Origin: Branchiostoma floridae
Taxonomy: Eukaryota > Chordata > Leptocardii > Amphioxiformes > Branchiostomatidae
DNA: 64,000 bases
Reading direction: 5' to 3'
Assembly: GCF_000003815.2 (NCBI RefSeq)
Contig: NC_049979.1
Span: 14,135,459 to 14,199,458 of the forward strand
Position numbers and translations under genes: made by a program. Positions within the stretch are counted from its first letter, which is position 1; the number at the start of each line of letters is the position of its first letter. The notes beneath the pieces were generated by a model. That model did not search any database and was not told the origin of the DNA. It saw nothing but the letters and a program-made list of their open reading frames with translations. Positions 2,629 through 46,582 of this stretch are shown piece after piece.

Positions 2629-5367
2629 TCATGTCTCTGTCTTCAACTTCTTTCTGTCTGGTTCAGCATGGTCTGTAAACATGTGGACAGATAAAATTGT
2701 GGTTATTTCACAATAAGGTCAGGTACAGCTTGCCAAAATATACAACATAGGTAAAGAGAAACAGTTCCAAAAACAAAGTTGATCTGCCCATTTTCTAACA
2801 TCATGGGTAGGGCCAGTATTTGAAAAAGTGAGGGTGTATGAGAATTGTGGGGAGTAATTTTACCTGTACCACCCTGGTGGGTGAGTAGCACATCCAGTGG
2901 CATCTGGAAGGACACACACATCATCTCCTTATTTGGGGCCACATCTCTTACTCTGTGGGAAAAGGACAAGTTTATTAACTAATGTGTAGGTCAAGGGGAT
3001 CTTTAATATCAACTTAGCCCAATATTTTCTTAAATTCCAACCTGCACGTCTTTTTTTAAATAATCTAGATATACATCCCACATTACATGTAGTAAGGTCT
3101 ATTCAACAGTGAACCCTTGTCATTGATATTTGTATTTTAACAGCAATTGACAGCATAGTTAGGTTTAGAATATAAATCATTCACGTTCTCATTCTCTTCT
3201 CAAGTATGAATGGCAGATGTACCACCTGTGTATGTAGTGGTCCTTCGGCAGGGCAGCCCCCAACACCTCCTCCACCCTGTGTCTGGCATCTGCTGCCGGG
3301 TCGTCAGCCTTGGAGAAGGTGTGGCAGTGGATCATGGGAGGTCGGTACTCCTGTAACGTCTCCCCTGCCAGCAGTCCGACGAATGCGTCCAGGAACTCCA
3401 CCGCCATGGCAGGCAGGTTCATGATCACGTGACTCGTGTGATCCTGAAGATCTGCATCCTCTGCTTGACACCTGTCAATCATGTCTTTCTTCACGACCTC
3501 CTGAATAAATTGTCTGCCATCCATATTGAAAGTTCTGACCCTGTCCTGTACCTTGTTCAGCTTTGTGTTGTGCACCAGCCATTTGTAGGACTCAGGGTTC
3601 AAGTCATTTGCCAGGATTTCACATCTCTTCCTAGCAGCAGGGATGGAGAATGGACCCACCCCTGCAAACACGTCATATACAACATCTCGTGCCCTGAGCT
3701 TGTTGGTGATTCTTTCATGTTCAGTTCCTAAACGAGGGTTCCAGTAGACTTGGGCAAAGTCAAATTCGAAGGAGCAGTGGTTCTCCTTGACTGTGACTGT
3801 AGTTTTGTCTTCACCAGCAATCAGCTCCATGGAGAAGAACCTGAAGGTGTTGTTGATGATGTTGGTCTTGTTCACCACTGACGTGATGCCCTGGTTCTTA
3901 TCCATGATCACCTGACCTGGGGCCACAAGGCTTCAGTTAACAATACAATCAAACAGAAGACTGTTGACAGTTGAGATATTCCTGCAATTAAGGTTATGAT
4001 GTCAGTATGAACAAGATGTAACTACCACGGTATGGCATCTCTCTTACCATTTGCATGTATAAGCTATCAGTTACCAAAGGAGGGGAACAATAGTTACCTA
4101 TGAGGGTCTTGTATGGGAGCTGGTGATCCCGGAGGTTCAGGTGAGCGATATGCCCGACCCTGCTGAATGCTGTGGTTACCTCTCCCTCTGGCAGGACAGC
4201 AGTCAGAACCTCCTGTGCTGTCCAACTCTCATAACCCAGCTGTAGGTCATATAGATGTGGAGCAGCTGTTACCTGGTGGGAACAATGTTAACATGTGTCA
4301 ACACAGTACAGCAGATAGTGTGGGTATGTACAGTACAAAGCAAGTAGGACTAGACAGCATCTTCTGTGCTGTCCAGCTTTAGCCTGTTTTAAACTGCTGT
4401 GGAATACATGTATAAACCTGGTAAAGCAGACTTTTCCCCAACAGCCAGAAAAAGGAAAGAAAAGCTTACCAGACTAGTCTTCTTTTAACAATGATCTGCT
4501 TGATAAAAAGAAATTTTGATTGAAGAAGAGACCATCAGTAAGTATTCACCCCATTCTCCTGTAACAGTTTGCCATGCTCTCCTGTCAGGTTTTCCTCAGG
4601 CTCAACCTTGTCAGGGTCAAACAGCAGGACCTTGTGCTGCTGGTCATCAGGAATGTCCACTACTTTCTTTGTGTTTGGCCGCTTCAACAGGATACTTTTC
4701 AGGGGCTTCAGTAGTCCACCGATGGCTTTCGTTGGTATCTGGAAACAAACATTAAAAAAAAAGAAACGCTTAGACTAGCAGTTGCCTTATTGTTCCCATT
4801 TGTTTCTTTGTATTTCCAGACTACTGTAAATGCATTTAAGTTTTCGGGGATTTAGCGGGAAAAATGCCTATTTGCGGTGATTTTAAGATCGCGGTAGCAC
4901 CATGCACTGTAGTCTCTTACTGCCATGGAAAAAATTTTCATGGTGGCTTTAAGTTCGCTGTAAATTTGCAACGCGAAAACTGCGATTATAAAATCAACGT
5001 TAAAATTCCGGCATTTCCAGTTACTAGTATATCGAACCTAAGCTACTTGATCAAACCTCTTTGATCCTACTGATAGAACTTCCTTGATGAATTTAAAAAA
5101 TTATGAAGCAAATTTACAAATTTATAGTAAAACTATTACCCAGACTTGACGATCAATTGATTATCACATAGGGTCTTGAGGTACCTTGATCGCTGGTACT
5201 TGCACAGTCAGGTTGAAAGCCTGTCTGTCCAGCACTTCCATGCCCCTGACTCCAGGGGGAGGGGTGAACAGGCTCTCAGACATCGCCAGGAGAAAACGTG
5301 ACACTGTCGTCTGAAGGAATGTTCTGTTTCTGTTGACAATACAGCAAAAACGTCCACAAAGTGTCAT
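2629..5367 (-). CDS. TRMT5: tRNA (guanine37-N1)-methyltransferase
   Basis: Six exons read on the minus strand: 5185-5367, 4550-4738, 4098-4272, 3226-3916, 2864-2952, 2629-2672. All have GT-AG ends and the frame closes at 1,371 nt (456 residues). The family transfers a methyl group from SAM to N1 of G37 next to the anticodon, which prevents +1 frameshifting. Supporting motifs: [12 protein letters not shown] near the N-terminus; [14 protein letters not shown] before the catalytic domain; the SAM loop FAGVGPF (about residue 266); NDLNPES (about 285); the catalytic-type [10 protein letters not shown] (about 349); and [10 protein letters not shown] near the end. The last small exon encodes a basic tail containing DRKKLK. 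The first residues ([20 protein letters not shown]) are basic, hydroxylated and free of acids, as in a mitochondrial presequence; a second ATG lies at 5283 (Met29). The gene is head-to-head with SLC38A6. Assignment is very firm; the exact start is less so. Confidence 0.95.
4824..5030. repeat. Dispersed MITE-like repeat in TRMT5 intron 1
   Basis: Begins CTGTAAATGCATTTAAGTT and ends with a related inverse sequence (GGCATTTCCAG), giving imperfect terminal inverted repeats. The inside is rich in CG and TTT/AAA blocks such as TCGCGGTAG. A second, shorter copy with the identical first 19 bases is near 44282. No clear target duplication was found. Confidence 0.5.
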
Positions 5368-5546: not shown

Positions 5547-12484
<6,938 letters not shown>

Positions 12485-13843: not shown

Positions 13844-16800
13844 TCAGTACAACATGGTGAAGATGCTGTTGCTGTCCTCACTCTGGCTGCGATCCAGTCT
13901 GGGTCGCTTGGCGCTGGGGGTCACGACCTGGCTCACGGACCTGTTTACCTGCAGGAAACAGAAGATAATGGTTATCACAGATGTCTGTAGGAAAGGTGTC
14001 TGTAAAAATCTTTTGTAGGTCTAAGGAGTATATTTTCTGCTCTTTTTCCCCACCCCCTTCATCATTTTAGGATTTTTTTCTCCTACCTCTTAATAATCAT
14101 GAGCCTCTTTTTAAATGTATGTTTTATCACCTCATAGTATTCCTGCCTCTAAACAGCAGGATAACTAGAGAGGGGTGGCAGTTGAGTGACAAATGGCTTT
14201 CGAAAACAGTAGGATGTCTTTGACTTATATGCAACACGAACACTTTCTGCAAACCAACACAAGTTACCATAAAATACTGAATACCAATGAAGGGAAAGAG
14301 AGCAGTTCCTTACTTGTGGTCGTTTCGTCGCTGGCTTGGGCTTGTCAGGAGAGACTCTTTTGAAGATGAAGTTCTTGGAATGACGAGGACCGTTGGGATC
14401 CACCACTTTGACGGAGGCAAGCCGCTCCAGGCTGGCCTTATCCTTCTTCAGGAAGGAGCCATAGCGATACTGAAAACCCAGAGCAAACATAAGAGTTAGA
14501 CCTACACAAGTTCTGTATGTGAATGACAGACTTCTTGCCTGTATTAATTTCTGAGTGTTCAACATAAATTCTATATGGGATTATTGCTGCAGTAGGGTTC
14601 CTAGCAGGAAAACAAACAACAGGTTGTCCTTTTCAACAGAACAAAATATTCTACTACAAGCTAAAGAAATGCCTCAAATAAGACAGCAATTCTTTTAAAA
14701 TTTCAGGCATATTTTTGCAATAAAGAGGGTTGTTCATGAAAACAACTTACTCTCATAGGTTTGGCCAGGATGGGTGGTTTTCCAGGTGAGACAGCAGCTG
14801 TGGTTGTCTTTTTAGCCTGGTTTTCCTTAGAAGGACCTGAAAGACAGGGAAATGAGCTACATGTTAACAACCTGCTGGATGTACTTCTAAAGCAGCTTGA
14901 CAGGGAGACCAACAAAAATAACTGATTACATTTCTCTGCATACAATAGGGATGAACATCATGACAAAAGAGAAGACTTACTTGAGGGCAATGCTGGTTTC
15001 TTCATCTTGCTAAGAGCCTTCTTGGCTGTTTTGACAAACTGGCTGTTTTCATCCAGGTGGTCATCATCACTGTCATGCTGGCTCTGAGATAGAAAGATCA
15101 ATTTGTTGTCACTTACAAAACATTAATTTTATCATCTGTAGAAAAGGGAAATTTCACCTAAAACATAGTCAAGGGAAGAACGTTTAAGACAGGGTGAGAA
15201 TAAGGAGGGATAATGATATGATGAAGTAGATGGCATCATTTCCTGTAGAAGGTTGGCTAGATAATAGGCTAGATAATTTCCATGATCTTCCCTTTGTCAG
15301 TAATGGTAGAGTCCTCACCTCCTGTTTCTCCCTGAGCCACTTCTCCCTCTGGTACCTGGCCATCCTCCACTGGGAGTCATCCTCCCCCTCCTCTCCTCCC
15401 TCCTGCTCACCATCAGAGTTCAAGGTGAACAGGTCTGTCTGAGAGTTCTCATCTAGGATTCAAAATATTTGCATAAGTCAGGCTGAGGTATTCTACTGCT
15501 CCTGTTCAATAAAGCTTGTCGTGCCCTCTGTTTCACACAGGTGCGGCTTTCCAAATAACCAACTTCATCCTTCTAATACATTTACGGTATACACTGCTCC
15601 CAATATGCAATTGTTATTGTCAGTTTCACACAAAAACAGCTTTCCAAAGCTTCTCCATTATTCTAATATATTTTACAGTATACACTGCTCCCAATATGCA
15701 GTTGTTACTATTGTGGACAATTGTCCTCACCAATATTGGTCCACCTGAACCTCCTCTTCCTGCGCGAGTCGCTGTGCAGGTCTCCATCCTCCAGGTAAGC
15801 CTCCTGGTACAGCCGCAGCTTCCGCTTGTCTTCATCCAGCATGGACTTCCTGAAAACATCAGATGGAAGGTTTTCAGTTTGTGTACTTTTGGAAGGTTTC
15901 CAGTTTGTGTATTTTTTTTTCAGTTTCCAGTGTAATATGACAAGTCGGGTTAATACAGGGCTCTAGCCAGCGTCCGTTTTTCCGTCAATTGACGGAAATT
16001 TGCTGCGTCTGACGGAAAAATTTTAAAACCAATCCGTCAACCTTGACGGACAAAAATCCTTGGTGGAAGCTACAGCCAGCTTGAGGACGCCGTCCACGGC
16101 CGTAAAAGCCACACACTGTTTGTTTTGCTATTGTTATGATTGTTGACAATGTGTGTCGGCGCCTTTTCGCATACGATAATCTCATTAAAACCCGTTTTTC
16201 AAGGTCTCAGTTCAGTCCTTCTAATTAATTTTCGCGGTTTTCGCGACAATTGTAATTGGCTGACGGAAAAAAATTTCGAGCTGGCTAAAGCCCTGGGTTA
16301 ATACAATAGGGGCACTCGGAATTACTGGGCAACTTGCAGACTGCATGCTCACATCCTTGAGTTGGTAATAACATCTGTCCATCATTAGCTACTCTAGGTA
16401 ACTAACACAGGGCTAATCTTAGTCAAGCTCAAACAGTAGTTTACCATCTCTAATGCTAAGTATCATCTGCCCACTCACATGTGCAGCCTGTGGACCTGTT
16501 TCTGCAGTTCTTCCTCGTCTGAAGGCAGGTCCTCTGGGTCCGTGTCGTGCTCATATTCATCCAGATCTGACCCCTCCGCCTCGTCCCCGCTCCCTTCCTC
16601 ACTCCCGGACAGTTCTGCCTCCTGCTCCACAAACTCCCCGCGGATTTTCCTGGGAACAACAGATCAAGCATAACATTAGCCTACAAGCAGGTACTGAGGT
16701 ACTTTGAAGTAGTACAAATAGACGACCATCATTCGTCCCTAGTTACTGCACGTATCCTAGTATGTCGGTTGCTGAAAGTAGACCAAATGGATGGATTTCC

Positions 16801-19800: not shown

Positions 19801-22800
19801 CAGTACAGTCTACAGAGGAAGGTCAGTTCTTTCACTGACCAAACACACTTTGACTGTGATATCTATAGCTCAGAGCATTTTTATTGAAACCATACAAAAT
19901 GTAACGATGACCATAAACATATCCTAAGAATAACACTGAGAATAACTGCCAGTCTGACCTGTCCTTGATCCCTCTCCTCATCTTGCTCTTCATCATCTGT
20001 CTCCTCTTCATCAGTCATCTCCTCCTCCTCGTCCCCAAACCCCTCCTCGTTATCCAGCTGGTACATCTGCTGCCGTTTCTCCCTCTCCTGCGCTCGCCGC
20101 TCACGCATCTTGGCCTGGAGAGTCTCCTTCAGCTTCATCAGCCGAGCACCTGCACAGACATGACCTCAGACTCAGTTTGTTTCAATAGCTTAAATTTCAG
20201 TCATCCTATGGGGCTCAAATCTATCATGGGAAAAACAGAACTAGAGTATTTTGAGCTATGTTATGAACTAGGTGCACCTATGGCAAATACTGACCAGGTG
20301 CTTCTTCTTTAGCAGGCTCTTCCCCTTCCTCTACAGTAACAGTCAGGGTCTCCTGCTTCAGTTCCTCCTTCCCTTCAGCAGATGTCTCCTTTTTTACAAT
20401 ACTGCAAAGACAAAACCAGTGTGTCCATGAAGCAGCAAATATACTTAGTCTGCTTTATCATAAAATGATTTGTTCACAATCACATAATTCTACTCGTGTT
20501 AAAAGAAAACGTCTGCTGAAATTTCAGTTCTTTCAAATTCTAGTGAGTAAGTTCTACCTGATCTGCTGTTGGTGCTTCTTGGCTCGTTTCTTGCTGGCCT
20601 GGGAATGCTTAATGAACCTGTCCAGCAGGTCTACCATACTTCCTTTCTTCTTGGGCCTGTCAGAGCAGCTTACAGCGGAGTCTTCCAGATCAATAAAGGA
20701 GTCAGGCCCTCCACTGAGGCAAGGTGGTGGCACTGTCAGCTTGAGGTCTTCTTTCTCCTCCTGTTTATCTGCTGCAGGTTCTGACTGCTCGGCTGAGGCT
20801 GCCTGTGACAGTTCAGGCTGGGTCTCTGATGTATGGGTGGGGAGGGGGGCAGCTGTCTGTGTGGACGTAGCAGCATCTGTTCCCACACCGGAGTCCTGAG
20901 TAATCCCTTCTGAGGTTCCCTGAGTGGTTTCAGCATTCTCTTGCATTTCTATATCATCCTCTGAACTAATCTTTGCACCGAGGTTTGTATTTACAGACGT
21001 TAGACCTGAATCTGTTATTTCAGTCGGCGATGCTGACACGGTTAGAAGATCCTTATCATTTTTATCTGCACATGTTGTATCTACAATGTCAGGCAGTTCA
21101 TCAAGTTCATCATTCGTGAAAACATCTGCTCTGGTGGGCTGTGGAGGGGCTGCTGGATGTGCTTGTGAAGGAGCTAGTGAACTGCCGAGAGGCTTCTCAG
21201 CTGGTCTTGTGGCCTGTGCTGTCGTTTTCCTGACGGCCAACTGTTGGGCAACAGGTCTTCTGAGGAGGCTGGAACCACACAGTAGAGGCATATTCAAAAC
21301 AGATAAACATTAAACTACTGGGTGACTTCAAAATACAGATTTCATTAAAAGATTTAGTTGTGCACTGGGATACCAAGTCAAACCAATATCACAAGATCAC
21401 GGGTATTCAACTGATTATAATATAGCTGCTATCAGGTTGGTAACATTCACCATCAAGAAAATATCCACCTCAAAAAGCTGCAGGTGGTTTAAGCTTCTTG
21501 TAGAGGATACAATTTCTATGTACACTTTCATTGTTTTCATTCTGAAAAAAAATGCAAACAATGACACCGTTCACTATTAAAATCCAAGGTAATCACCTTG
21601 CGATTCCCCCGACAGCTTTGAGTGGTCCTGCCTTAGGTCTGGGCTTGAAGAAGTCATCTATAGTTTTAGGTGGTGGCTTGAGGTAAGGAAGGTTCAGCTC
21701 TGACTCTGTAAGAACAATGGAAGTTTGTATAGTTTCCTTGAAGCATTTAAGCGACAATTGTGAAGATATTTGCTACAATGGGAAACAAATTCATGATCTG
21801 CCAGTAGATAAGTTGAGCCATTTCTCTGAAGTACACAAAACTGTTTTCTTCAGCAATACCTACACGTAAAATGTATAAGACACCACCTCATTCATTGAAA
21901 AACGTTCTGGATAAAAAGCATAGACATCTATACCCTTCTAGAACTTAAGTTGAAAATGCAAATGCTTCTGTACCCACCTCTGGTCATCCTTTGTGTTTCA
22001 CTGTGCATCAGATGTTGTTCGGCTTTATTCAGCCTCTTGGGCTTGGGAGGCTGAGGGAACATGGTATGGCTCAGACATTGAAACATCATTTAATTTATAG
22101 CACACATCTATAACTTTTGGTTGGTGAAAAATGGCACCTCAAGTGACAATATGTAATTAGAGTATATGGTAGTGGATAGGCCATAGCTAAACAACACAAT
22201 TAACAAAACTCACACAAACTACAAACATGCTGTAGGTGATACACTTACTTTCTCCTGTTTCTTTCTTGCTTTGCTCTTTGCAGATTTCTCGGATCTGACC
22301 TGTTCTTCTTCCTCCATGTCCATTTCCGCACCCTGGTCACTGTTGTCATTTTGTTCATCATCAAAGAGGTCAGAGTTCAACTTGTTTAGGTGCATCTCCA
22401 CCTCCTCATCTGATGATGAATCCAGCACAGGCTGGAGAAGAGACAATGGACAGTTTAGGGTCAGAATGAGCTAGACATTGGGAGAACATGACAGAATACT
22501 CAATATTCTGTACATGTATTTGAACCTTGTTATCACAAGAGTAAAGCATGAATGCTAATATGCTAGGCCCTAAGTCAGAGTAACAAGTTTACTGTGCTTA
22601 TGACAACACTCACAACAGATGGGTATACTTTTTCTAGTACTTGGGCTACACCTTACTTATCTCAATGCAAGCCTACAACTGTTTTCTTCATCTGTTTTTT
22701 CAACAGAAATGAAAAATGAATAATTGATGCTCTACATCTCTTACCCTTTTCTTCTTTCCATCTTTGGATGTCTTCATATCTGTTTCCTGTTTATCCTGAT

Positions 22801-29755: not shown

Positions 29756-32700
29756 CTATTCTAGTTCCATGTCCTGCTCTTGTCCGACACTGTCGGCTGT
29801 AAGGTGAGGTACAAAGTACAGTCCACAGAAAGCCTCCTGCAGAGCTCGATGGCAGCCCAGTTTGGTTGTATAGCCTCCCGCCATGTCGGCCTGGGACGAG
29901 TCTCTCATGTGGGACATGTAGCTGTGACAGGAGAGGATACAGCATAGTAAGGGCCACGGGTTAGATAGTGTAATATCTGGACCTCAATGTCATGCTAAAG
30001 GAACTGTTTAATCAGTGCAGTCATATTTTTTTGTTTTCCACTTTTACATTTTGACCAAGGTGGGCAGAGCTATGGATTGGTCTTAAGAACAGATACATGT
30101 ATTTGCAATAACAAAAAACTAGTGTTCATAAACTAATTTAGATATGCTCGATCAGTTTATATATTTTTTTCTGTTGGACTCTAGTTGGATATTAATACCA
30201 TTTACCACGTTATGCCACTACAAGGATATCTGCCACAATACAATACAAAATGCACTACAAAATTTGATGTAGAGACTGACCCATTTTCCTCCAGGAGTGT
30301 AATCTGTGGTGGTTCTGGCCCTAGCAGGTCCACAGTGCCTGGTCTGTACTGGTACAGGGCTGCCTCCACTGCCTTTGGGACAGGTAGGAAGGATGTCCCT
30401 CCCTGCAGTACAACACAAAACAGATAGAGGGAAAACATTAAAGTCACAGTCCCATCCTTCCCGACCTAACTGTTTCTGGTTGTTATCTCAATTTTGCACC
30501 TAAAATTCATAGGTTTCAGTAGGCAATAACGTCAATAATCAAATATATGGATTTATAGTACAAATTTTCAGTAAAATTTCTCAAATTCTTTTCACTAATC
30601 CCATTTGTAACAATTGGCCGGTTTTGGAAAGAAAGGTTGGCCTAGCATTTGACAACAGATATTAACCTGTATGTTGATTCTGACCGATAGATTGATCAAG
30701 GAACTCAACAGTAAATCTATAGATATGTGTGTGTTGAGGCTTTGTGGTTAAACTACAAATATCCATTCTCCACCATAACCCACCCCTATCCTGATCCCAG
30801 TGGAGAACTGAGTCGTTGGTGCAGGTTTCTTCTCCATCTCCTCCTCTTGTCTGGCTGTGTGACTGGCCAACACCAGACCAGCAGGCAAGTCTGAGAACTC
30901 CTGCACAATCAAACATCACAGAGTCACTATTAAGCTGTGCAGAGGTATCGGATATGTTTACAATATTCACTCTATTATGACTATTATGATTACGTACACA
31001 AATGTTATACATCCAGTACCTCCAAATGATTCCTAAGTCAGTTATAGACTGTATCCATGTGTACTTGGTGATGGTCTTGTAACAAAAACTTAAAATTGCA
31101 TATCCTTTTTTGGAGTAAGACTCGTCAAATATTTGTACTCTGCTGCTGCTTGTATATCATATAAAACAAGAAATCTTTTTAAAAAAGCTGTGCCTTGCCG
31201 CGTGGTAGGAATATCGTCAGGAAAAGGTAGGTCGGCACTTCAAGCCCGGCAAGGCAAAATGCTGTGCCTTGGCGTGCAGTAAGGATAATTTGCTTGTCTG
31301 CTAAATACGTATTATTAAAATTTTGACACTAGAAACCACGAAAATGAGAAAATCTTACGATTATATTTGAAAGGCAACACTCTGAAAATACAAATGGCAT
31401 TCTGTGCCCATCATCAACCCAAAATACGATCTTTTTCACGTGTTTACGGTATAGGCCGCATGTAGCCAGTCACAAGTATGCAAATGAGCTAACTATATTT
31501 AATACCATGCAAACACCGCATGTGACCATGTTGGAACACGTTTTCAGCTGTGTTTGCCGACGAATTCCTGCCGTTAGGGAGAATTTGCGGCCTCAAAATT
31601 GATATCACAAGTGAAGCGAAGTTATAGTTGTTGTTTTACTTTCATTATTTTGAAAGAACTTTGTAGCGTCATAGCGAGATCAACCGATATGTTTGGATGA
31701 CATAGCGGCGCGGAAATATATGCTTCGACGGCGTGAATTTTGAGCAAAAATACCGCAGAATTATGGTTAGAAAACCCAAGGAGCTTTTATCCTTGGAAAA
31801 CCCCACATTTTATTATTTCAGGGGTCCCTGGTCCAATTTAAAAGAAATAATAAGTGTACCGTCCAAAATAAGAACGTAGCGGGTGGATTCTGCGGCTGAA
31901 AAAAATAAACGTAACTGTTACCTAAACATGCACTCTTGAAAATGCAGACCAAAAAGTCCCAAAGGTGGGTTTTCATGGTTCTGGTCGCATGACGAAAATA
32001 TTCTTATATCAAATGGATGTTATAAAAAGGTAAAAGGACAATTGAAAAAAAAAAAACTTTCAGTAGGCGGGTTCGAACCGGGGTCGGCAGTGTGGCGACT
32101 AATCACGCTAACCACTACGCCATGCTAACATTCACAGTACCAACTCGTATTAACAGGTATCCAAATCTAAGGCATAACTTGAATACGTCCGTTCATTCCA
32201 AGATTCAAAGATTCTAATGTCTAATCCTCCGAAAAATGTCTAAACAACTGTTACTTATGTGAAAAGTTTGTAATGAGACGAGAGCCTGGCAAAATAATGT
32301 CGGGAAAGGCATGTTACAAGCTCTGATTGGCTGGCTGGAATCTCGGTGTGTCAATAGCCTGTTTAGGCTATAGGCACACTCAGTGTGTCAATAGCCACAG
32401 CGATATAACAAAATGATCCTAAATATTATCTATTGCGACTTCTCGTGTGACGTTTTGAGCTGGCGCTCTCCTAAACTCACGTTAGCGTTTTGCTGCGGTC
32501 TCGGAAGGCCTCTCCAACGTTTTGATGACGTCATGGCTACTTATATATTCACATACAATTTATTAGCCTGATTTGGAAATTGTTTCATCTTTATGAATAG
32601 CTAATGCAATTCTTGTTGCGAGATAATGCACTTGATTTTATGTCACTCCAAATGAATTTGGAATTTTACCATACAAACGCTTCATTTATTCAATGTAACC

Positions 32701-35700
32701 AAATATTAAATGCTTTTAGAACCGACCGCAAACAGAAACAAATACGTAAAATGGACGGTTTAAAATTCAACAGGGATGTACCATTGTCTGCCTGAGCCGT
32801 CAAACTTGTCCATGAGAAAGGCGATTTGGAAGGGCCTTTGAAAGGGTCTTTGGAAGAGCAAGGTTAACAGGTCCGTCCGTCCGTCCAAGGAAGAAAGCTG
32901 GCGTAAAGCCTTGCCTGGCGGCAAGGCAAAAACTGTTAAAAGATGCTGCCAGGTGAGTTTCAGGGTGTTTAACAAACTCAACTCGGAAATAAGTTTGTGA
33001 TCACTTCCCCTGCTAACCTACCAGGTTGTCCAACAGCTCCTCTCTCTGTCTCATCTTCCTCTGCTTTTCCCTCCTCTCCTGCTGGACCAGCTCCTGCCTG
33101 CTGTGCTGCAGGTACGCCTGCTCCTCCTCAATCAGCTGCTCCATCAGCTCCTCATCCTTACTCTGAAACACACAGGCAGGGCTTTCATTATCATCGTTCT
33201 TCATCAATGTCATTTGATTGAATCCTGCAGCTGTACATCAGCATAACCACTGAAGTCAGAACCATAACATAAACATCAATCCTCCTTAGTAGGGCAAGAA
33301 ATATTTAGTATTAGAAGTGACACACTCTTTCTCTCCTAGTTTTGTATAAGCTGCCAACTCATCCAAGAAGGCAACGCGTTTCTAATCTTTGGTTCATAGG
33401 CAAAGAAAACAACAAACAAACTACATGCCTTAGGTGACCACGGGCAGAAAAACAGGCAAACTTATACACACAGACAAGTCTCAGGACAAAGCAGATGTGA
33501 ATTTTGTTAACAAGTAGCCTTTACACAATCACTGGCACTTCCTGGCAACAAGACAAGAAGAACAAGACAGTTGGCGGGTGGTCTCTGCCAATTGATTGAC
33601 AAGAATGGAGTGCTGGTGTACTTCGTGGTCACCAGGCATACCCTCTCAGTTCCTTTTCACCCACTTCAATTTGCACCATTAAAGGCCAGCAATTCAAAGG
33701 TAAATGTGGTCTAGCCTATGTTCCAAAGGACAGTCCAAGTCTGCCCAATGGTTGTCTTTGTACTAAACACAAGGGATTCTGGGGGAAGAGTTTTGCCAAC
33801 AGCTAAAGGTATGTCACTACAAACATGCCTAACCTTTGCACATGGCCACTGCATGAGCAGAAATGGTCCTGTACTGAGAAGTGTAGCAGGAAGTAGAGTC
33901 TGTTGAATAAATGTTCTTCTTAAATTTTTGTTGCAGCTTTGAAGAAATTTCGTTGAAAAAAGGAAACTGACCATTTGGTTTTTCATTCACCTAATTTCCC
34001 ATAGTCTCTGAATTCAAAGTTAGACAGTGTGACAATTGCCCATCAATCTTGAATTCCACCTGTTCAGAGGACAGTAGACAGGTGATGCCTGTGTTCATAG
34101 TTCCCAGCTACTGTTTTACACATATCAAATTTGAACCAGAAAAAATTATTTTCTCCTAGGTTTCCTAATCACTGCTTCTGTTCTCCAAGAAAAGCAAATG
34201 GTAGAATTGAACTTTTATTCTTCTACAAACAAAGATAGAATGATTATATCATTTTCCTGTACCACCTTATTCCCTGACACCTTACCTTCAGTCTTGTGCT
34301 ACCAGCAGTGTGAACAATCCATCTCTGTCAAGGTGAAAAATCCCACCCTGTTCCACCCTGAACATGATGAAGGGGTATTTTGACTTCAAAGAACAAGAAC
34401 TCCATCAAAGGTGTCCTTCTTATACTCAGTATGCTGACAAGATTTCACACCCATCTTTTGTCCACAGCCGAGCAGCACTTCCTCACACAAACATTGCCAA
34501 GTTCCCATGAACAATCTGCCTTTATTAAGACATCCTACAGCCACTTAGTGCAGAGCTGCTTGAGCAATGATAGCCACTAGTCTTGTGTATGGCTCAACTA
34601 CCATGAAGACTGAGGCCAAGTCAACCTTCAAGGCTTACCTTTGACTGAAGCTGTGGGTGTAGTTTTGTGCAGTATGGTTGATGTCAGAAATATGCTGCAG
34701 CAACAGTTAAACCATTTTGTGCTGATTTCCATGAAACTGTGCGGAATATATGGAAAGAGATATCTGCAGACTAAACGAGGGGTATCCCTCACTGCTAGAG
34801 ACTCAGGAAAATAACAGGAATTGTTCCCTTTTAGATGAACACTACATGTCATCTTCCAATAACGCATGGTAATGTTCAGCTATACAGACATCAATATTCA
34901 ATTTTCCTGTTAAGGTTTTCCCTGCTTTGTCCACCAACAAGGCATGCATTGTGGGCAGTTACTTCAACCCTTCTCATTGTTACATACAGACAAGAAGTTG
35001 ATATCTACCCGACACAGCACGGCGTCAGTGTACCAACATGGCATGGTCTGGTGCCAGGAATTCACCAGTGTTTACAGTACTTGGGTTCCTGGCCTAATGG
35101 TGGGGGTGTATTTGTTGGTGCCCGATTATTTGTTTCCAGTTCTGAACCTCAAACAAACACGGGCAGTCAAGCCAGGTGAGTGAAGGACTCTTGAAGGCAA
35201 TTGTCGAACACGGCAATCCCCTTCTTACCTGGACAAGGCAAAACACCTGGTGGACAGGTAGATGAAAGTTCCTGTCCTCAGGTGTAAACTGCTCAGGTGT
35301 GAATGTCTCAGGCGTAAACTCCTGTCACTTCTGTCTGGCTCATGGCACCAACAAGGTCACGCCGGACTCCCAGCACACCAAGCGTGACATATGGGGAAGG
35401 CTTGGACAAGATGTTATTTATCACTTTCCCACCACTGGACAAGTCACACAACCTGATACCGTCTAGCTTTCCATCTAGATGTATCACTTATAGACAACTA
35501 AGAAAGACCACTTTCAACATTAGACAAAGGGAATCTGGCAATTTAGTTCGAAGAGTAAACTTGATATGTTTTTGGCAAGGACCTTGACTCTTGAGGAGTT
35601 GGTACCCAAGCTGGAATCATAGATTGGAGTATATATATTGGTAGCTTGTCCAGGAAGAAATCCTTTATAGCATCAACATCCAGGACTCAAAACATCTCCC

Positions 35701-38700
35701 TGTGCCAGCACCAATATGAGGTGGTATATACATTGTTGTACTGTATGGCACATGCCCTTGTAAGTTGTTATCATTTAACCTGCTCCCTTATCCCATAATC
35801 AATAGAGAATTGGTAGCCAAATGCCTACTTTAGCGTGCTTAGTAGTAGTCCTCTATGTTCTGCTGCTGTAGTGGGCTGGACACCCTTCAGTGTACTTAAG
35901 GCTAAAAAAGGTCTGTGGGAAAACTTTGAGTGACAGGAAAGGATTTATAGTTTAGGTTTTGGGTAATCTAATAAGGGCTAAGGAAACACCACAGGAACGT
36001 CACCTCAGATGACACATATTCACTAACATGTCATGCTTCTGTTATTTTCCTGGACACAATATCAACCTTTTCCTGTAGAAGGATATTGACAAAACAGCAA
36101 CCATACTAGTAGCATTCTACTAATGTAAACTTCCTAGATGATGCTTACTCATATTCAACTCTTTAGTCCCTTATGGTATCCTGCCATCACTCAGCATTTG
36201 TCATTGTACCTTACTGCACCATATTTGAGTGCTCTCTGTCTTCACATACAAATGGAGAAAGTGTTCTATACTGTCTTGCTATGGGTATGAGCTCTTTAAC
36301 AGTAAGTGCTTTTCCTAGTTCCCCATAAAGACTGGTTACAAAAACCATGACCAGGGTAGCAACAAAGTATGAACGAGTGTCCATTTACATATACCGTTAT
36401 TCCCTATAAAGTCTGGTTACAGAGACCTGACTGTGTCTCCACATGCTGCTATGGTTCTGTCTACACAGTAGATTACCCCACATCAGCCCAATGGAGACAT
36501 GTAGATAAAGAAGGACACTAAAGTCAACTTTCTGTAACTCTCCACCAATAAATGTAGGCATTTTCCGAATCACAACCAAATTCTTGTGCAAGATGTCAAG
36601 CCTTGATTTAGTCTACTGTAGGTGGCAGCTACTACGCTGACGGCACTAAGTGTTAAATATTATGGTTACATTCATGGGCACCCACAGTATTTTGAAACAG
36701 TGATTTCAGAGAGGGATCACACAAATACGTGTTGGTGGCAAATTGCTGATAAGGCCAAGAATGTTGAACAAAAACTTTCTTATCTGTGAAAACAAACCGT
36801 TTCAAAGCCCTTTACCTAATAAATAGAAGAACTAAATTCTCCCTGTCATGCCCCAACCCTGCTGTAACTGTAGCTGGCAACACTCCCACATTGTGCCATT
36901 ATATATCCTACTTCTCTTCAGGGTCACAGAATAAGAGACCACCCTCATCTATTACTGTAGACACACCTTCATCGTGCCCCTGCTTATTTTGGTCCATCTA
37001 ATCTTTAATGCCCGGATTAGATATTTACATTCAACTGGAGTGCTTACATATAGAATGATTCAAAAAGAAAACTGCCTACAGAGGGCCAGTGACACTATGT
37101 AAACTGTTTAGAGTGGCCCCGTCTGCGGTCAGATCTTTCAACAGCTAAGAGCAGAAAACTTGCCCATGTTGGTAAACACCACTAATTGCAGGGTTACAAA
37201 TTACCAGGTAAGGGTACACCTAGGGGCTGGGGATAATGGGTGGGCATGTTACGCGATACAGCTGAACCACGGCTACTTTCATCGCAGGAATTCACCTCTG
37301 CGTCGCTGCCCTGCCGGTGGCCAAGTTTGCAGAGGTGTGAGAACAAAAGCAACTCGTGCGCTGCTTACAAGGAGTGAGAGTTTCCGTAGGTGGCAGAGTT
37401 TATCCCCTATCAAGTGATGCTAAGTAATAATACCACATGGGTCACAGTTAGAATTACTGCTGTCTTTGTGCCATGCCAGATTACCTAACTCAAACTTTCC
37501 AGACTGTTTCCCCAAGACGATCTTAGATTATGTCTTAAGCTGTTGAAAAAAGGGTGGCTTGACTCTTGTCATGCAAGGAGGATAAGTGGCAGATGTAGGT
37601 GGCTTGCTGAAGAATGGATTCAAAATAGACCCAACACTGAGTCACAAGTTTCTTTTCACAGATTCTGATCTACTAGTCACCTTTTGGGTTTTACTTCTCT
37701 CATTTCCTACAGTACTGTATATAGTTAAGGTAAAAGTGTATAATGCCTCAATTTCAAGAAGAAAGAATTGGTTTCTAAATTTTGTTAATCTAGTAGGTGG
37801 CTTGCTGAAGAATGGATTCAAAATAGACTCAACACTGAGTCACAAGTTTCTTTTCACAGATTCTGATCTACTAGTCACCTTTTGGGTTTTACTTCTCTCA
37901 TTTCCTACAGTACTGTATATAGTTAAGGTAAAAGTGTATAATGCCTCAATTTCAAGAAGAAAGAATTGGTTTCTAAATTTTGTTAATCTATACTAGCCTC
38001 CATAGCAGGCTCTCTGGGACCTTTTTTGGGCTCATAATACACTTTTGCTGGCCATTTCTATTTGTACTCGGTCGCTGATCGCTGGCGTTTTCTGATTGCC
38101 GGCCTCCAAGAGCCTGCATCCAAACGGCGCATGAAAGTAATATTAAAAAACGATTAGACATTCATCTGCCCTATTAACATATACGTTAGGAATAATTCAC
38201 AACTCCGTGAGAGACAATTCGCATGTCGGCTGCAAGCATTTTACAACTCGGGCGGCACGCACAGCCCAGCCGACATCTGGTCATTTGCATACAGCATGCT
38301 TGTTAACCAATGCGCCGCCACCGTACATCCGGGAACTCCTTTTTGCTGGCATCGTGACATTGCTGGTGTTCCAAACGTTGTACGACGAATTTTCCGAAAT
38401 ATCATGAATGGTTAAAGATGTTTTTTTTTACGCTAGGTTCGCGAAAATGCCATATTTTCCTGACTTAGAGACAAAATTAGAGAATTGTCGGGTCAGTGCA
38501 CACGGGGCGTGACAGCGCTCTGTTCGGTGGAGATGCGTGCAGTTTATTAGCCGTCCACGGCAGGCAGGAAATTCGTACCTCCTAGTTAATCGCCCTAATC
38601 GTTTTTTAATATCACTTTCATGCGCCGTTTCCATGCAGGCTCTTGGAGGCCGGCAATCAGAAAACGCCAGCAATCAGTGACCGAGTACAAATAGAAATGG

Positions 38701-41700
38701 CCAGCAAAAGTGTATTATGAGCTAAGGAGGCTAAATCTATACCACCTTTCCAACTATCAACATGTCCATTTGTTACCTATCAGACTCCATGGACATATAT
38801 TGTTTAGCCTGTTTCTCCTTTTTTACTGCAAGTAGTTTTAAGTAAATCAAATATAAGTGGATGGTAACAATTCAATACTAATTTGTACCTTTAAGACCTT
38901 TATGTTGTCATTCCAACTTTTGTACATCAGTACAAAAATTATGTATGTAGCTACCTGCAAATGTAGTGGCAAGCCACATCAAAATATAATGGTCTGTCAC
39001 CACTGTCCTCACCACTCCTAGCTACCCCTCCACACATAGGGGGCCCACCATGGAGGCACAGGTGTGTCTCTACCATCTTCACCTGACTCTGGTAAGCATC
39101 AACTTCACCTCTCTCACCCTGCGTAGGTGGAGAGTTTAGAGTATATGCCGAGTGGGTGTGAACCATAGGACCTGCATTGTGATCATGATGGAGAGGTTTT
39201 AAACAGAACCACAGGAGCGAGTGTGGCCAGCACAGGGCACAGACCTGCACAGGTACATGGCACCTGTGGTGCTGGTGGGATGGCAGTGTCAGAAACATGC
39301 AGAAGTATTATGGCTTCCACTTTACTTTCCGAATTCGATCTGATTCACCTGGACTGATTGTGAGGAGGTTGCAGTCCAGTTTGGATGACACGAAAACACC
39401 ACAATTTTCAAGGTTCTCTCCTGTGCTATACTACCGGGGTAGTAGTCAAAAGAGGTGGTCACCCAAAAAACACACAGACAAAAAATGTTACTGTTAACAT
39501 TAATGAATGTTTAGTGGTGGCCTTAGAGAAACCACAGGGTGGGAGGGAAAGTCACCTGGCAAATCCTGTAGTGTAATTTGGCATAAGTATGTGGCATTTC
39601 TGCCAATAAGCCAAGCTGGCTTACACTAACTCTTGCTTAATGGCATCTCAAGCAGTTGCCTCAAGAGTGCAATAGTCTGTAAGAGTTTTATCCCCTTGTA
39701 TACCCTGGAACTAACAGTGTAGCCACGACATGGAGCAATGTGTAGCCAAACTCAAACAACCCCAAATGAACCCTACTGCAGGCAGAGCTCACTTAATAGC
39801 CAGACTGCCCTGATTTTAATATCAAATACTAGTATAGCATGATGCGTAGATTTTACTAGAGCAATATTGAATTCCAATATTACATGTTGATATTAACCAA
39901 CACTAATTAGTGTGTTCCTTCCTTTTGTGTTGTATAGAACAGACCTGACTGAAAGTTTGTTCCCAATTTACACCTGTTGGTAGAGAGCCTGAATCTGGCT
40001 TACATTGTGCGATAATGCTGCTAAAAAATAGTCCACAAAATAAGCCATGATCGTATGCAGTAGTCTTGTTACAGATAATACTACAGGTAAAGATGGCTCC
40101 AAGCCTTTGTTACAGAAACAGAAAGAAAAGTTACTTGTACTGCCACAAGGAACTACAAGGGTCTGAAAGAGTGAACAAAGCTTTCCTGGGCAAGGACAAA
40201 AGTTTACAGTCCAGAAACCAGAGATGTGTTTGTCACTTCATCCCAGGAAGCTGAGGGGCAAACCGAGCTGTGCTCCAAACAGGAACAGACTCAGACATGC
40301 TGGGAAACAAACGTGAACTTCTTGAACCTTTGAGTTTGGAGATGGATGGAGGCTCTGAGCTGAGGGTCACCACCGGGGACTAAAGATACCTTCTGGAACA
40401 GCTGACAAATTACCAACAAACCACAAACGGTTAAACCTATTCACAGAGTCCTCCTGAAGTCATCACTACATCACACTCCCAGGAAGAGGAAAACTCACCA
40501 CAGAGCCTGAAATCACACTCACGTATAAATAAAATAACATAACAGAATATATCATAACAGAATATATCCATTCCATTTACTTGTAACCCCATTCCTGTAA
40601 TAAAATGGGCCTAGATGTCTTTATTGTGAATAAAGCCACTTTATAGCCATCACCTTGGCAACCATGAAGTGCACCTCTACCCACACTGTGCAGGTGGACA
40701 GTTTAGAGTATACGCCAAGTATATGATGATGACCGTAATTGGCACTGATAAGCGAATTTGGATTCATTAGTGAGATGATTAAGAAATGGCCAAGTTCATG
40801 GCCTGTCCAGGCCTGTCATTATGGTTGGCCTGTCCAGGACTGGAGTCAACATGTGAATGACAGGTCCCCACTGTTTGTTTACAGCATGGCCTGTGTTTAC
40901 CAAAGGTGATACTGTAGCCCCAATACCAGGCTGCCCAGCAAACACTAACATTTACAAGATCTTTTCTTTGTGTGAAAAGTACCCGATGAAAGCTTGGAGG
41001 AAGTATAGGGAATTACCCACATATCCTGTGATATCTGCAAGAAACATTCCCACAGTGCAGACCTAGCAGTTTTTACTACCTACCAATGTGTCTCCAAATC
41101 AGCTACACAATTATTGATACGTTGATATAAAATCCTTGTGAGATTATACTGAAGCATTGCACACAATTGTTACAAGGTGATGTAAGAACCAGTATCTAAG
41201 TGCAATTATATAACTTCTAAGTGCATCATTGAAGGTTCTTACTCACATAAGTGTTAGTATTAAGTCTTCACTTAGTCCCTAATTGGTGTGAAAGCACCAG
41301 AGCTGAAGCATTAGAATGAGTCTTGACGAGCCATAACTTAATGATGCCACTATGCTACTGATGGGCACGTGTACATGCAAACATGTGGTCAATATCTTTC
41401 TGATACAAGAATGAGCAAGCTAAAAAGTAACTACTATTACAGATGACAGTCACTTCAGAGTTACCTGTCCTCCCTAATCAGGCCCCTGCAGAAGTTTGTT
41501 TATTTAAGGCTGAACAAGTGATGACAAACAGGAGGACCTGCTGACAGAAGGGGACTGACAGACCCTCATAACCATTGGGATTTTCCATGTCAATTTTGTG
41601 TTTGTGTTGGACTCCTGAAGCATAGATATGTATCCTATAGCTTTGGGTATGAAAAGTGACAACAATGATACCGGTAACATTATCAGAGCTTTGTTGTCTG

Positions 41701-44700
41701 TCAGTGATATGCTTCACAGTTACACACATAAATTACAAGACAAATAAATGAAGAAAAAAACATGCAAATTCTTAGACTATGTATATTATAACAGTGCTAC
41801 ATTTGTATAACATTGAGTGATAGGAGACTCACTCACTCACTCACTATCCATTGAGAGGAGAACATGAAAAGAACAACAGGAAAGAATGAAGCAAGATAAA
41901 GAAAACTGTTGAACCTAATGAGTCAGTAAAGAAACAGTGGGCCATGTGGATATGGTATCTGTTGTTAAGACAAGATAAGAACATGTCAATAATATTTACA
42001 CTGAGGCATTCCAGCATCTTGCTGGGTGTTGAGCAGTGGTCAACAATGGCGGGGGCTACTGTGTACTGTCACACAAGGTGACTTGAACCATGTGGTAACA
42101 GAAGCTGTGATACAATGTACTATATGAAGTGGTCCTTCGTGTACTGTTGGGTAATGCAGTCTTGGTGATTTCAACCCATAGAAAATGTGTCTCTGTGATC
42201 CCATTTAGGGGACAAAAACTTTTCTGACGACAAATGTAAAGTTAGCAACCAACCCTGATCAGTCGTGAGAAACACCAGACACCTGAGTGATCTCCGCCCA
42301 GCTTATACATGTAGCAAGACAGCCAACACCTGTCCTGGCATGCCATTATCAGAATAAAATTGTTGTTTTCTCTCCCTGGATGAAGTTGTCTGTAATGACA
42401 AGTACAATAAACACACGCACTGCCTCCATGTAGGGCGCTCCTTCATGTGAGATCAGATTCTGCCTGTCCAATTTAGGGAAGAGGAGAAAAGAGGTCATGT
42501 TTTGTAAACATACAACCTGCTGTGTACAGGAGGACCTCTCCAGCTGACATCCTGCTGGGACCTGCTATCTCCGATGACTCCACTCAGACTGGGCTAATAG
42601 AGGTGGCGACATGGGGTAAGGAGTACCAGAGATGTTTGTAGGGATAAGCAGTAGCCACCTGTAGAGATAGAGGGTAAAGGGGTAGGTGGAGGAGGGGGGT
42701 GGAGCATACCACACATGTCACAGGGATAACCTGCCATCTGTGGTTGGAGTGACGTGAAGGGAGAGGAGGAAATGGATACACATGATACATCACCTTCATA
42801 CTCACACCATACTACTCACACCATGGAGGGATGTAAAGTTTAGCATGTGTAAGGAAGGGATGAGATCAGGACAGCAGCTCACCAGTTTGCTCCTGTTCCT
42901 CTGGATATTGGACTTGTTACTTTTCTGGTATTCTTCCACCTTCTTCTTGGTCAGCTCCATATCAATGTTGTTGGATAGGTTGAATACTGCAAAATGTAAA
43001 AAAAAAAACAGTATTGTGACAAAAATTGTCTGATGGCACTGCAGTACCAAGGACACAATTTACATGAAAAAAACAGTTGTAGTAACTTGTACTCAAATCT
43101 GACACATCATGAGTTCACAGTCATGCAAGGGACATTATTAACAGAATGGTACAGTCAAAATATCAGTAATTATTGAATGTTACATCTTCGTATCTCTCAA
43201 AACATGTGCCTTAAGCTTGAGAAAATAATGGTGGCCACCTAACACAAAGAAGAAGAAGAAGAAAAGAACACAGACAGAGATAATGTACTGCAGAATAAAT
43301 GGCCACACAAGACTTTGCTTACTGATAGTTTCCACCTCCTCCAGGTAGTCATTATATTCCCTGAGACTTGTGAACTCCTCCTCCTGTCTGTTGTAGCTAG
43401 AAAATAGGGGGGAAATTATGTGACTATAATCAAGTAGTCAACAGTACTAACAATATTACATGTACATATTTATAGATGACTACAAATCATCTTATCTACA
43501 ATACCATGATACATACTTGATCACAACAAATCATCATAATTTGCAGCTCCTAGTTTGACATTATCGATAGTTCATGTTAATTACTATATTGCTTTAGCTA
43601 ACATTTTGATATACTCAAGCTACAAGTTGATGTGATGCTCTAACTGAGGCCTTTGTCCAGTACCCTATTAAGAAGTTACCTCAGCCCATGTTGACATCCC
43701 TTCAAACTTCCCTTAACATTGTATCAATTCTGGTCAGATCTCTGTGGTTACAGAAAATATATTGTATACTTTATAATAATAATAATAATAATGAATGGTT
43801 TTTATTTTGCATCAAGCGACAAACAATAACATACAATGGCAGCCTTCATACTTTGTGTTATTGATATTTGTAAAGAGACAAATTCAGAAACTTATCAATA
43901 CATTTTCAATATTCTTTTCCTGATATCCACTTCCTTATCGACGAATGGGTCTTCAAACTGCTGTATCCTGAATGTGTTCCTCCTGAGGGAGATGTTACAT
44001 TCTGGGCACGTCCCTGAGCCTCGGGCAAACAGTGTCTCCACACAGTTCTCACATCTGCAGCATGAAGGAAGCAAGTTACATGTTCATGCAGTTAATGCAG
44101 ATCATGTCTTGACACAATCTTGTCACCTACACACGTCTCGACAAATATTACAGTTCTTTGTTTCCTTTAAGAAAATTGCTTAACTTTCTGCAGCATTTAC
44201 AAATCGACTTAAAAGTACTTGCTTAAAGACAAACCATGGATGTATGATACGTCCACTATGCACACATGAACAACCCAGTACTGTAAATGCATTTAAGTTC
44301 AAGGGCATTATATGTCTACAGTTTTTACAGTGATCTCTTCACTGGGAACTTAAAACTGCCGGAAAAATTTTTGTTCTTCCTTCTGCCTGCCCCCCTTGTG
44401 TAAGCACTACATCATACATCACGTAACATTACATATGTTTGTTTGTTTGTTTATTTATTTATCCAGGGGTACATGTCGCCTGGCCAGCGTTTTTCAAAGA
44501 TCCCTGGGGGGAAACCCCGTACATACATAACAATAATCAATGACAATATAAAATTAAATAACTGGTAACTTGGCAAGAATCGACAAAGAATAACGCAATT
44601 TAACTAAGACAAGATAAGGCAAATCAATTGTACAACGTTAATCCTAATATAACTCCAAATCATAAGTGAAATCAAGTAAGTAATGGGAATTTGCATACCA

Positions 44701-46582
44701 ATGTGAACAGAAAAAGACATGACGGATTACATTTCAGACCATTAGGCCACACCAATTTAATTTCTTGGTTCACAGATTTTTTCATAAAAAATATGGAGCG
44801 AGAGGGCGAAATAAAAATAAAAAGAAAAATTGTAAAATGGTTGGGGTAAAGGTAACGGCTGATCCAAAACAAAAAGAATAAAAAGTTTTCAGCTTGAAAA
44901 AAGTACAAAAATACTATTACTGTACAGTAACAGCACCTGTACCCACACTTTAAGGAGCTTATAATATAAAGGCCAATTTGCTACACCAGAAATTTGGTTA
45001 ATGGTTTCAGTTATGGTGAAAATTTGCTGAGTGGTAATTTTTATTTTTATTTTTTTTTCCAAAAAATTGGAGCGAGCGAATCCGTGAACCAAGAAATTAA
45101 ATTGGTGTGGCCTTATCATATGCATTCAGAGTACGTTAGGCCTGATCATATAAACGTTTTAAACTGTGATAGTGTTTCTCGCGATCTTAATTGGGACGAA
45201 AGGGAGTCCAGAGCACGCCCTTAAGTATGAAAAAGCTTCTTTCTGTGTTCGGATTTGGCTTTAGGGAGCAGGAGTCACCTTGTGATCTAAGGCGGGTGTT
45301 GTGCGTGTGTATTTCTGAGAGTTGGGAGAACAATGCAGTAAGATGGGGAGGGGTCATGCCGGTAAGTGCCTTGAAAACGAGCGTTGCCTTACTTCTTCTG
45401 TGTACATCGGCTATTTGGACCCATCCAAGACTACGCAAGACGTTTGATGTAGAAGTATAATGATCGCACCCCAAAATCACGCGGCCAGCTCTATTTTGGA
45501 GTTTCTGCAGTTTATCCAGACTTCCTTTACCCCCTTGATCCCAGATAGTACTGCAATACTGTATGTGTGGGAGAAATAGGGCTTTGTAAATTGTGAGCAA
45601 CGCCTCTCTATCCAGGTAGTGTTTAAGGTACTTCATTATTCCGATTATTTGGGCAAGCTTTTTGTTGAGATGATCAAAGTGATCATGCCAATTTAACATG
45701 TTGTCGATTATGACTCCAAGATACTTAAATTTATCAACTTGATCCAGAGTAATCCCAGCTAAAGTAATATCTAATTCAGTGTTTATGTCGTTTGCCCTTG
45801 ACGAACCCACTAACATCGTTTTACATATGACTATTCTGTCCGTCTGTTATAGAACCCTTGCTGTTTTGCTAGTAGGTCATTTCTGACTGGCTATGCATCA
45901 AGTTGTAATATGGGTTCAAGGGCCACCAACTGACCAGTCCAAATGGTCCAGACCTTTTGGCCTAGCGGTTAAGGTGCTGGGTTTCTGAACTGGCAGCCTG
46001 GGTTTGATTCTTGGGAACCAAGAGACTGTTTCTACTCGCCTCTGATGTCTCAAAGTCAAGTCAAGGACTCATATTTTACCATCACTACCTTGATACCGCA
46101 TACAAGACTGAAACTGGACAGGGTTTTCCGAAAACCCAGAAGGCATCTGCCTGTTGTGTCCTGATCACTACAGCAGTTAGTTACTTATATAGTGCTATCG
46201 CAACCTTTTAACCACTGCGAATACTCCATTTTCTCCTTACTGCAAAATCACTGCGTTTTTGCTCCTTGGTTTACAGTAACGTGTCTACCCAAATGAGTCT
46301 CTACTCTACTCTAAAAAGTAAACAAACAACTGTGGGGAGGGGGGTGAATTTCTGTAGATGGGAACTTTATTTCCCAAATTAGAATTATATAATCACACCT
46401 TGATAAAAATTTTGTACGTGCAAACATAAACTGCGTCAACGACATGATAACGGTATTGCATATAATGACATCTGACAGGACGAGTCCACTCACAGCGTGT
46501 GTCCACAAGTGTTGACCATCAGCACCATGGACGGGTTTCGGTATTTGGTGGTCTTACAGCGCGGGCAGATGGCCTCATCCAT
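29756..46582 (-). CDS. MNAT1: MAT1, RING-finger assembly factor of CDK-activating kinase/TFIIH
   Basis: Eight exons: 46494-46582, 43902-44054, 43323-43396, 42883-42986, 33022-33162, 30784-30900, 30281-30402, 29756-29921. The frame closes at 966 nt (321 residues; the human protein has about 309). MAT1 bridges CDK7 and cyclin H and anchors the kinase to TFIIH. The N-terminus is a C3HC4 [17 protein letters not shown], then [12 protein letters not shown] and CPEC. It is followed by [18 protein letters not shown] and [20 protein letters not shown], both characteristic. A charged coiled coil fills exon 5. The C-terminal CDK7-binding part has [28 protein letters not shown] and CGLYF. Intron 4 is about 9.9 kb, far larger than the others, and carries a tandem duplication and a foldback transposon. 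The stop codon TAG is at 29756-29758. Identification is firm. Confidence 0.96.
31191..31256 (+). repeat. tRNA-like (pseudogene) sequence with a partial tandem copy
   Basis: The first seven bases TGCCTTG pair with the last seven CAAGGCA like an acceptor stem. GCGTGGTAGGA sits in the A-box place and CACTTCAAGCCC in the B-box place, with a possible T-stem GTCGG/CCGGC. At 66 nt it is shorter than a normal tRNA and the anticodon arm is poor. A partial copy (TGCCTTGGCGTGCAGTAAGG) follows at 31265. Probably a tRNA-derived repeat, not a working tRNA. Confidence 0.4.
32045..32130 (-). mobile_element. tRNA-derived pol III unit (SINE head) in an MNAT1 intron
   Basis: On the minus strand, TGGCGTAGTGGTTAGCG matches a pol III A box and GGTTCGAACCC is a perfect B box. 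A run of twelve T follows (plus-strand A run at 32045-32056), as in a pol III terminator. The acceptor stem does not pair, so a functional tRNA is unlikely. Confidence 0.55.
37595..37990. repeat. Near-perfect 198-bp tandem duplication in MNAT1 intron 4
   Basis: Two head-to-tail copies, 37595-37792 and 37793-37990, both starting GTAGGTGGCTTGCTG and ending TTTGTTAATCTA. I found a single difference (GACCCAACA against GACTCAACA). The high identity implies a recent duplication. A frame runs through both copies because 198 is divisible by three, but it shows no protein character. Confidence 0.9.
37994..38733. mobile_element. Mutator-type foldback element in MNAT1 intron 4
   Basis: A 740-bp element with a perfect 9-bp target duplication AATCTATAC (37985-37993 and 38734-38742) and terminal TAGCCTCC/GGAGGCTA. 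Long inner inverted arms of about 127 bp run at 38031-38157 and 38595-38721, nearly identical. The left end has about 28 extra bases between terminus and arm. Nine-bp duplications with long inverted repeats point to the Mutator (MULE) superfamily. No transposase is present. Confidence 0.82.
41829..41848. repeat. ACTC microsatellite
   Basis: Several tandem ACTC units in MNAT1 intron 4. Confidence 0.8.
43774..43793. repeat. AAT microsatellite
   Basis: Tandem TAA units in MNAT1 intron 2. Confidence 0.8.
44437..45848 (-). mobile_element. 5'-truncated non-LTR retrotransposon (LINE) with RT C-terminal remnant
   Basis: The minus-strand frame from about 45843 to 45187 encodes the typical C-terminal end of a CR1/Jockey-like reverse transcriptase: [18 protein letters not shown], then [18 protein letters not shown] and [14 protein letters not shown]. 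It is about 209 residues from the first ATG and ends with a normal stop. A 3' UTR follows to 44437, where a TAAA/CAAA repeat tail marks the 3' end. The catalytic part is missing, so it is dead. A small Harbinger-type MITE sits inside its 3' UTR. Lies in MNAT1 intron 1 in the gene's own orientation. Confidence 0.8.
44745..45112. mobile_element. Harbinger-type MITE nested in the LINE 3' UTR
   Basis: A 368-bp element with 34-bp terminal inverted repeats (starting GGCCACACCAATTTAATTTC; one mismatch) flanked by TTA on both sides (44742-44744, 45113-45115). A 3-bp TTA duplication fits the PIF/Harbinger superfamily. AT-rich interior, no coding frame. Confidence 0.7.
45885..46150 (+). mobile_element. 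tRNA-derived SINE copy 2 (MNAT1 intron 1)
   Basis: Shares flanking words with the copy at about 24740-24880. A-box-like TAGCGGTTAAGGTGCTGGG and B-box-like GGGTTTGATTC are present in the right order, then GAGACTGTTTCTACTC. The B box is more decayed than in copy 1. Confidence 0.65.

Follow-up and report, generated by a model that had tools for sequence, protein, structure and literature searches.

The locus analysed here raises the question of why three genes that are close neighbours in mammals, TRMT5, SLC38A6 and MNAT1, also lie within 44 kb of one another in the lancelet Branchiostoma floridae: by common descent, through shared regulation, by chance, or through an error of assembly. We analysed a window of 64,000 nt, to which all positions refer. 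Its portion from 2.6 to 46.6 kb is filled by five genes on alternating strands, namely TRMT5 (-), SLC38A6 (+), CLSPN (-), a coiled-coil gene (+) and MNAT1 (-), with the start codons of TRMT5 and SLC38A6 263 bp apart on opposite strands. A preliminary description, made from the sequence alone, had named the three genes, set TRMT5 and SLC38A6 head-to-head, and placed CLSPN and an unnamed coiled-coil gene between SLC38A6 and MNAT1. This layout held throughout: the family and structure matches agree with the three identifications, that of SLC38A6 being less firm, CLSPN is borne out by its claspin matches and the coiled-coil gene by a gene model, and the outer limits are those of coding sequence, the TRMT5 stop codon ending at 2629 and the MNAT1 ATG beginning at 46582. 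The window contains only two runs of N, each of 100 N, at 822-921 and 17038-17137, and therefore no gap separates any two of the named genes; the only gap within the block is located inside CLSPN.

Gene models were built from open frames joined at splice sites that were ranked by a generic score, and the top-scoring option was used at most junctions. A lower-ranked option was taken at five of them (TRMT5 junction 3, SLC38A6 junction 13, MNAT1 junctions 4 and 7, and CLSPN junction 17) because the joined protein better fitted the known family; lower-ranked options were also used at CLSPN junction 13 and where exons 1 and 2 of the coiled-coil gene meet. For TRMT5, SLC38A6 and CLSPN, the last exon was positioned by inspection.

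The TRMT5 model, encoding a tRNA (guanine37-N1)-methyltransferase, occupies 2629..5283 on the minus strand and comprises six coding exons (5283-5185, 4738-4550, 4272-4098, 3916-3226, 2952-2864 and 2672-2629) that specify 428 aa. The product matches the Pfam families TRM5-TYW2_MTfase (PF02475; E 4.2e-29) and TYW2_N_2 (PF25133; E 1.4e-19), and agrees at 52% identity over 262 residues with a stretch of human TRMT5. Its nearest solved relative in the PDB is Trm5b (E 1.7e-26, 96 bits), followed by three sequences at 83-84 bits, and the predicted protein is accordingly secure at the level of the family, with Trm5b best by a modest margin. An assignment to TYW2/TRMT12 was rejected on this modest preference for Trm5b among the solved relatives and on the identity to the human TRMT5 stretch.

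The transporter gene, which we designate SLC38A6 and which could also be a pro-orthologue of SLC38A1-A6, lies at 5547..12484 on the plus strand, with 16 coding exons in the model, exons 1 and 2 being the least certain, and 532 aa when counted from the upstream (first) ATG. The predicted protein is securely a member of the SLC38 family, as judged from the Aa_trans domain (Pfam; E 8.4e-69, run on a 508-aa version that starts at a later ATG). Its place within the family is weaker: human SLC38A6 aligned at 47.7% identity (403 bits) and SLC38A2 at 45.5% (368 bits), and among 447 alignment columns 69 residues were shared with A6 only and 56 with A2 only, in a comparison that took in A6 and A2 only. 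In the PDB (E up to 0.001) a proton-coupled transporter was the sole match (E 2.6e-4), so that the A6 assignment rests on the comparison with these two sequences and on position. These figures weakly favour A6 over an ancestor of the A1-A6 group, and a gene basal to A1-A6 would fit too. The better argument for A6 is the position of the gene beside TRMT5, although that position is itself what needs demonstrating.

The identity of MNAT1 (MAT1, CDK-activating kinase assembly factor; 29756..46582, minus strand) appears secure from its predicted product. The model has eight coding exons and encodes 321 aa, of which residues 1-305 align to residues 1-308 of solved MAT1 (E 5.2e-107), a chain that we take to be human, and Pfam recovers MAT1 (1e-57), the CAK anchor (3.1e-23) and the RING (2.7e-13). 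Intron 4 is 9.7 kb long and bears repeats: a 198-bp tandem duplication, 99% alike, at 37595-37990, and a 128-bp inverted repeat of 96% identity, with arms 437 bp apart, at 38030-38722, which together suggest recent repeat activity. In addition, intron 1 contains an open stretch of 219 aa (45190-45846, minus strand) that had no match in Pfam and looks like a LINE reverse-transcriptase tail.

Two further genes lie between the transporter and MNAT1. CLSPN (claspin; 13844..24234, minus strand), with about 21 coding exons and the join to its last exon at 14314, may be regarded as securely identified from two separate matches, the two parts of the predicted protein that were tested corresponding to claspin residues 522-733 (E 3.9e-20) and 1012-1216 (E 1.2e-39) of a chain that is presumably human. 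Exons beside the gap in this gene are approximate, and the two claspin-like parts flank the gap in the correct order and strand. The unnamed coiled-coil gene (26913..28856, plus strand) has a four-exon model of 314 aa, in which exon 1 (26913-26985) is uncertain. Examined without exon 1, its product matched no Pfam family above cut-off, the best being ERM_helical (E 0.012, below its cut-off), and no convincing relative was found in the PDB, where the sole row was troponin T (E 0.84).

The divergent pair at the left of the block is the feature for which a mechanism can most readily be proposed. The 263 bp between the TRMT5 ATG (5283) and the SLC38A6 ATG (5547) constitute a candidate bidirectional promoter (5284..5546), the starts being less than 1 kb apart as in gene pairs with bidirectional promoters, where our spacing runs from start codon to start codon. 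Bidirectional promoters are CpG-rich and often TATA-less. The observed-to-expected CpG ratio here is 1.42 on the SLC38A6 side (5400-5599) and 0.51 on the TRMT5 side (5200-5399), as compared with 0.52 for the window, and two TATAAA words occur between the genes, at 5414 and 5427. The word AAGATGGC, which we take to be of the YY1 type, overlaps the SLC38A6 ATG at 5544 (+). This word and the raised CpG on the SLC38A6 side speak for a promoter between the genes, the unraised CpG on the TRMT5 side and the TATA-like words against it.

In human, PMC5457492 describes TRMT5 and SLC38A6 as having a common promoter with opposing directions, and reports H3K4 methylation marks with a similar pattern in both directions; in the same paper, CRISPRi scores both genes as essential while cutting scores TRMT5 only. 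The lancelet pair resembles this system in having the same two genes, head to head, over one short region that would be shared as a promoter, and differs in that the 263 bp are known here from the sequence alone and that the transporter could be a pro-orthologue. Since a common promoter has been published for the human pair, the arrangement of TRMT5 and SLC38A6 looks both ancestral and mechanistically explained. By this mechanism the two genes would be started from one short bidirectional promoter, which would be a plain reason for them to remain together: a break between them would disrupt the promoter of TRMT5, whose product is required to modify tRNA, and purifying selection would therefore be expected to hold the pair. 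If this promoter dates back to the origin of chordates, the pair would offer a simple and testable instance in which a shared promoter, and not distant enhancers, keeps genes in order, and would give a deep history to the difference between CRISPRi and cutting seen for human SLC38A6 and TRMT5 in PMC5457492.

The position of MNAT1 calls for a different explanation. Human MNAT1 presumably runs towards TRMT5, tail to tail and adjacent to it. Read in reverse, the window presents MNAT1 (+), coiled-coil gene (-), CLSPN (+), SLC38A6 (-) and TRMT5 (+), and inverting the last four genes converts this into MNAT1 (+), TRMT5 (-), SLC38A6 (+), CLSPN (-) and coiled-coil gene (+), an order that begins as in mammals. 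A single inversion of the block from TRMT5 through SLC38A6 and CLSPN to the coiled-coil gene, broken at one end where the tails of MNAT1 and TRMT5 meet, could thus have turned a mammal-like order into the lancelet one, with no insertion needed. The mouse order is available from a table of a chromosome 12 QTL (PMC4420501), which lists Six6, Six1, Six4, Mnat1, a RIKEN transcript, Trmt5 and Slc38a6; the table has four columns, of which we read the second downwards, and the accompanying passage does not state that this is map order.

The account that we consider likely, taking these observations together, is that of an old neighbourhood kept in lancelets, in which TRMT5 and SLC38A6 are held as a pair by their promoter while MNAT1 is linked to them by descent, with one inversion. 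MNAT1 would have been near the pair since the chordate ancestor, owing to descent and slow rearrangement and not to shared regulation. Probable orthologues are linked both here and in a distant species, with homology weaker for SLC38A6 and the mammalian linkage taken from PMC5457492 and PMC4420501. The conservation that we argue for covers this Branchiostoma genome and mammals, and ancestral linkage appears to be its best reading.

Chance is the alternative that survives best. MNAT1, TRMT5 and SLC38A6 may have shared one ancestral chromosome whose order was then scrambled, with only TRMT5-SLC38A6 truly retained, and on that pair this explanation agrees with the one that we prefer. It draws on PMC7269912, according to which most gene order inside conserved chromosomes has been reshuffled between amphioxus and other lineages; similarly, PMC11175523 finds no apparent microsynteny between two hemichordates, which shows how far gene order can be lost. 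We expressed chance in simple formulas, for which we assumed 700-1600 genes per chromosome, 18000 cases of human neighbours and 4500 divergent pairs in human, with half staying on one chromosome. On these values, a third gene would fall within two genes of a pair in 0.4-0.9% of cases, giving 34-77 such cases genome-wide; with dozens of near-neighbours of this kind expected by chance, the nearness of MNAT1 alone weighs little. On the same assumed values, the probability of a divergent adjacency arising at random where a chromosome is scrambled is about 0.0003-0.0007, with about one (0.7-1.6) expected genome-wide. The pair hence carries more weight than the nearness of MNAT1, and a spacing of 263 bp would make it rarer still, but neither proves selection. 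Against chance for MNAT1 stands the finding that one inversion explains both order and strands, together with the trio being almost adjacent in the mouse list of the PMC4420501 table, so that descent needs few steps. Accidental closeness of MNAT1 is, on balance, rather unlikely.

Less probable again, and in our judgement improbable, is a co-regulated block in which enhancers or a chromatin domain serving MNAT1, TRMT5 and SLC38A6 keep the linkage. Nearness retained over what is presumed to be half a billion years is what such a block would produce, and AAGATGGC occurs near the starts of both MNAT1 (on the minus strand at 46719, 137 bp upstream of the ATG) and SLC38A6 (at 5544). However, the window holds AAGATGGC seven times (both strands) and AANATGGC 17 times, which makes the motif weak; the MNAT1 start codon is 41 kb from the candidate promoter of the pair, with two genes between; and the three genes all look like broadly needed ones. 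The preliminary description had suggested that linkage of the trio was ancestral to chordates and possibly maintained by shared regulation. The first suggestion is supported for TRMT5-SLC38A6, in line with the common promoter that PMC5457492 gives for human, whereas the nearness of MNAT1 fits it but is weak when taken alone. The second is not supported for MNAT1, given its distance from the candidate promoter and the dozens of such neighbours expected by chance, and shared regulation is credible for the TRMT5-SLC38A6 pair only.

An assembly artefact in which unrelated contigs were joined, for which the two 100-N gaps in the window might speak, is very improbable, because the claspin-like parts are in order and on the same strand on both sides of the block's only gap (17038-17137), while the gap at 822-921 is outside the block and no further run of N occurs, a wrong join free of N being invisible here.

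The preferred explanation, of a promoter-held pair with MNAT1 linked by descent, can be extended into a fuller history, which we put forward tentatively and regard as doubtful in its entirety. The chordate (or bilaterian) ancestor may have carried a block MNAT1-TRMT5-SLC38A6-CLSPN-coiled-coil gene on alternating strands beside the SIX cluster; the last four genes would have been inverted as a unit in lancelets, CLSPN and the coiled-coil gene would have been lost from the block in vertebrates, and the bidirectional promoter would have served TRMT5 and SLC38A6 for over 500 million years. The inversion model yields a clear prediction of gene order in other deuterostomes. Among the papers listed in our literature search, no report of the trio in a non-vertebrate was seen, and the block may already figure in surveys of ancient microsynteny; the survival of old gene order at this locus would exemplify a known phenomenon well.

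Two known systems may be set beside the lancelet block. The mammalian one, which reads SIX6-SIX1-SIX4-MNAT1-TRMT5-SLC38A6-TMEM30B-PRKCH-HIF1A when RIKEN transcripts are taken out of the mouse list in the PMC4420501 table, shares with it the closeness of MNAT1, TRMT5 and SLC38A6. It differs in that CLSPN and the coiled-coil gene lie between them in the lancelet, where a Pfam search found no homeodomain in 46600-64000. A further difference is that MNAT1 here lies on the other side of the pair and is inverted relative to it in comparison with the mammalian strands. The pharyngeal cluster of deuterostomes, presented in PMC11175523 as an ancient metazoan microsynteny, is likewise a small group of genes kept close across distant lineages; in contrast to that cluster, no developmental transcription factor was found among the genes of the lancelet block or in 46600-64000, and order was not kept.

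Mammalian MNAT1, as we understand it, has its 5' side facing SIX4/SIX1/SIX6. The corresponding 17.4 kb of the lancelet window (46600-64000) gave no Pfam family in six frames at E up to 0.01, in a scan with stops masked that would miss a gene lacking a Pfam domain; a control scan of 1-8702 on the minus strand recovered TRMT5 and the ankyrins. SIX genes 5' of MNAT1 were accordingly not found within the window by Pfam in 46600-64000, and as regards a genomic regulatory block, in which bystander genes lie near a developmental regulator that has long-range enhancers, no such regulator appears by name among the five genes or as a Pfam family in that interval; one may lie beyond the window.

To the left of TRMT5, an ankyrin-repeat gene (about 198-1564, minus strand; Pfam Ank, E 3.9e-23) is broken by the 100-N gap at 822-921. 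Between this gene and TRMT5, Rfam reports a match to the mir-2060 family at 1928-2024 (+), with 55.1 bits against a cut-off of 54.5. A microRNA of this family, bbe-miR-2060c-3p, is listed for Branchiostoma belcheri in PMC5650284, and 18 of 20 letters are identical between it and the window at 1952. On the strand of the match, folding was no better than that of shuffled sequences (z -0.32). A working mir-2060 microRNA gene was rejected on account of this folding and of a score only 0.6 bits over the cut-off, and we therefore treat 1928-2024 as a mir-2060-like element. Such an element speaks for a lancelet origin of the DNA without proving it. On the opposite flank, the interval 51817-52422 carries an impure T run of 181 bases (51990-52170) enclosed by 52-bp inverted arms (51817-51868 and 52371-52422) that are 94% identical, and is possibly a mobile element.
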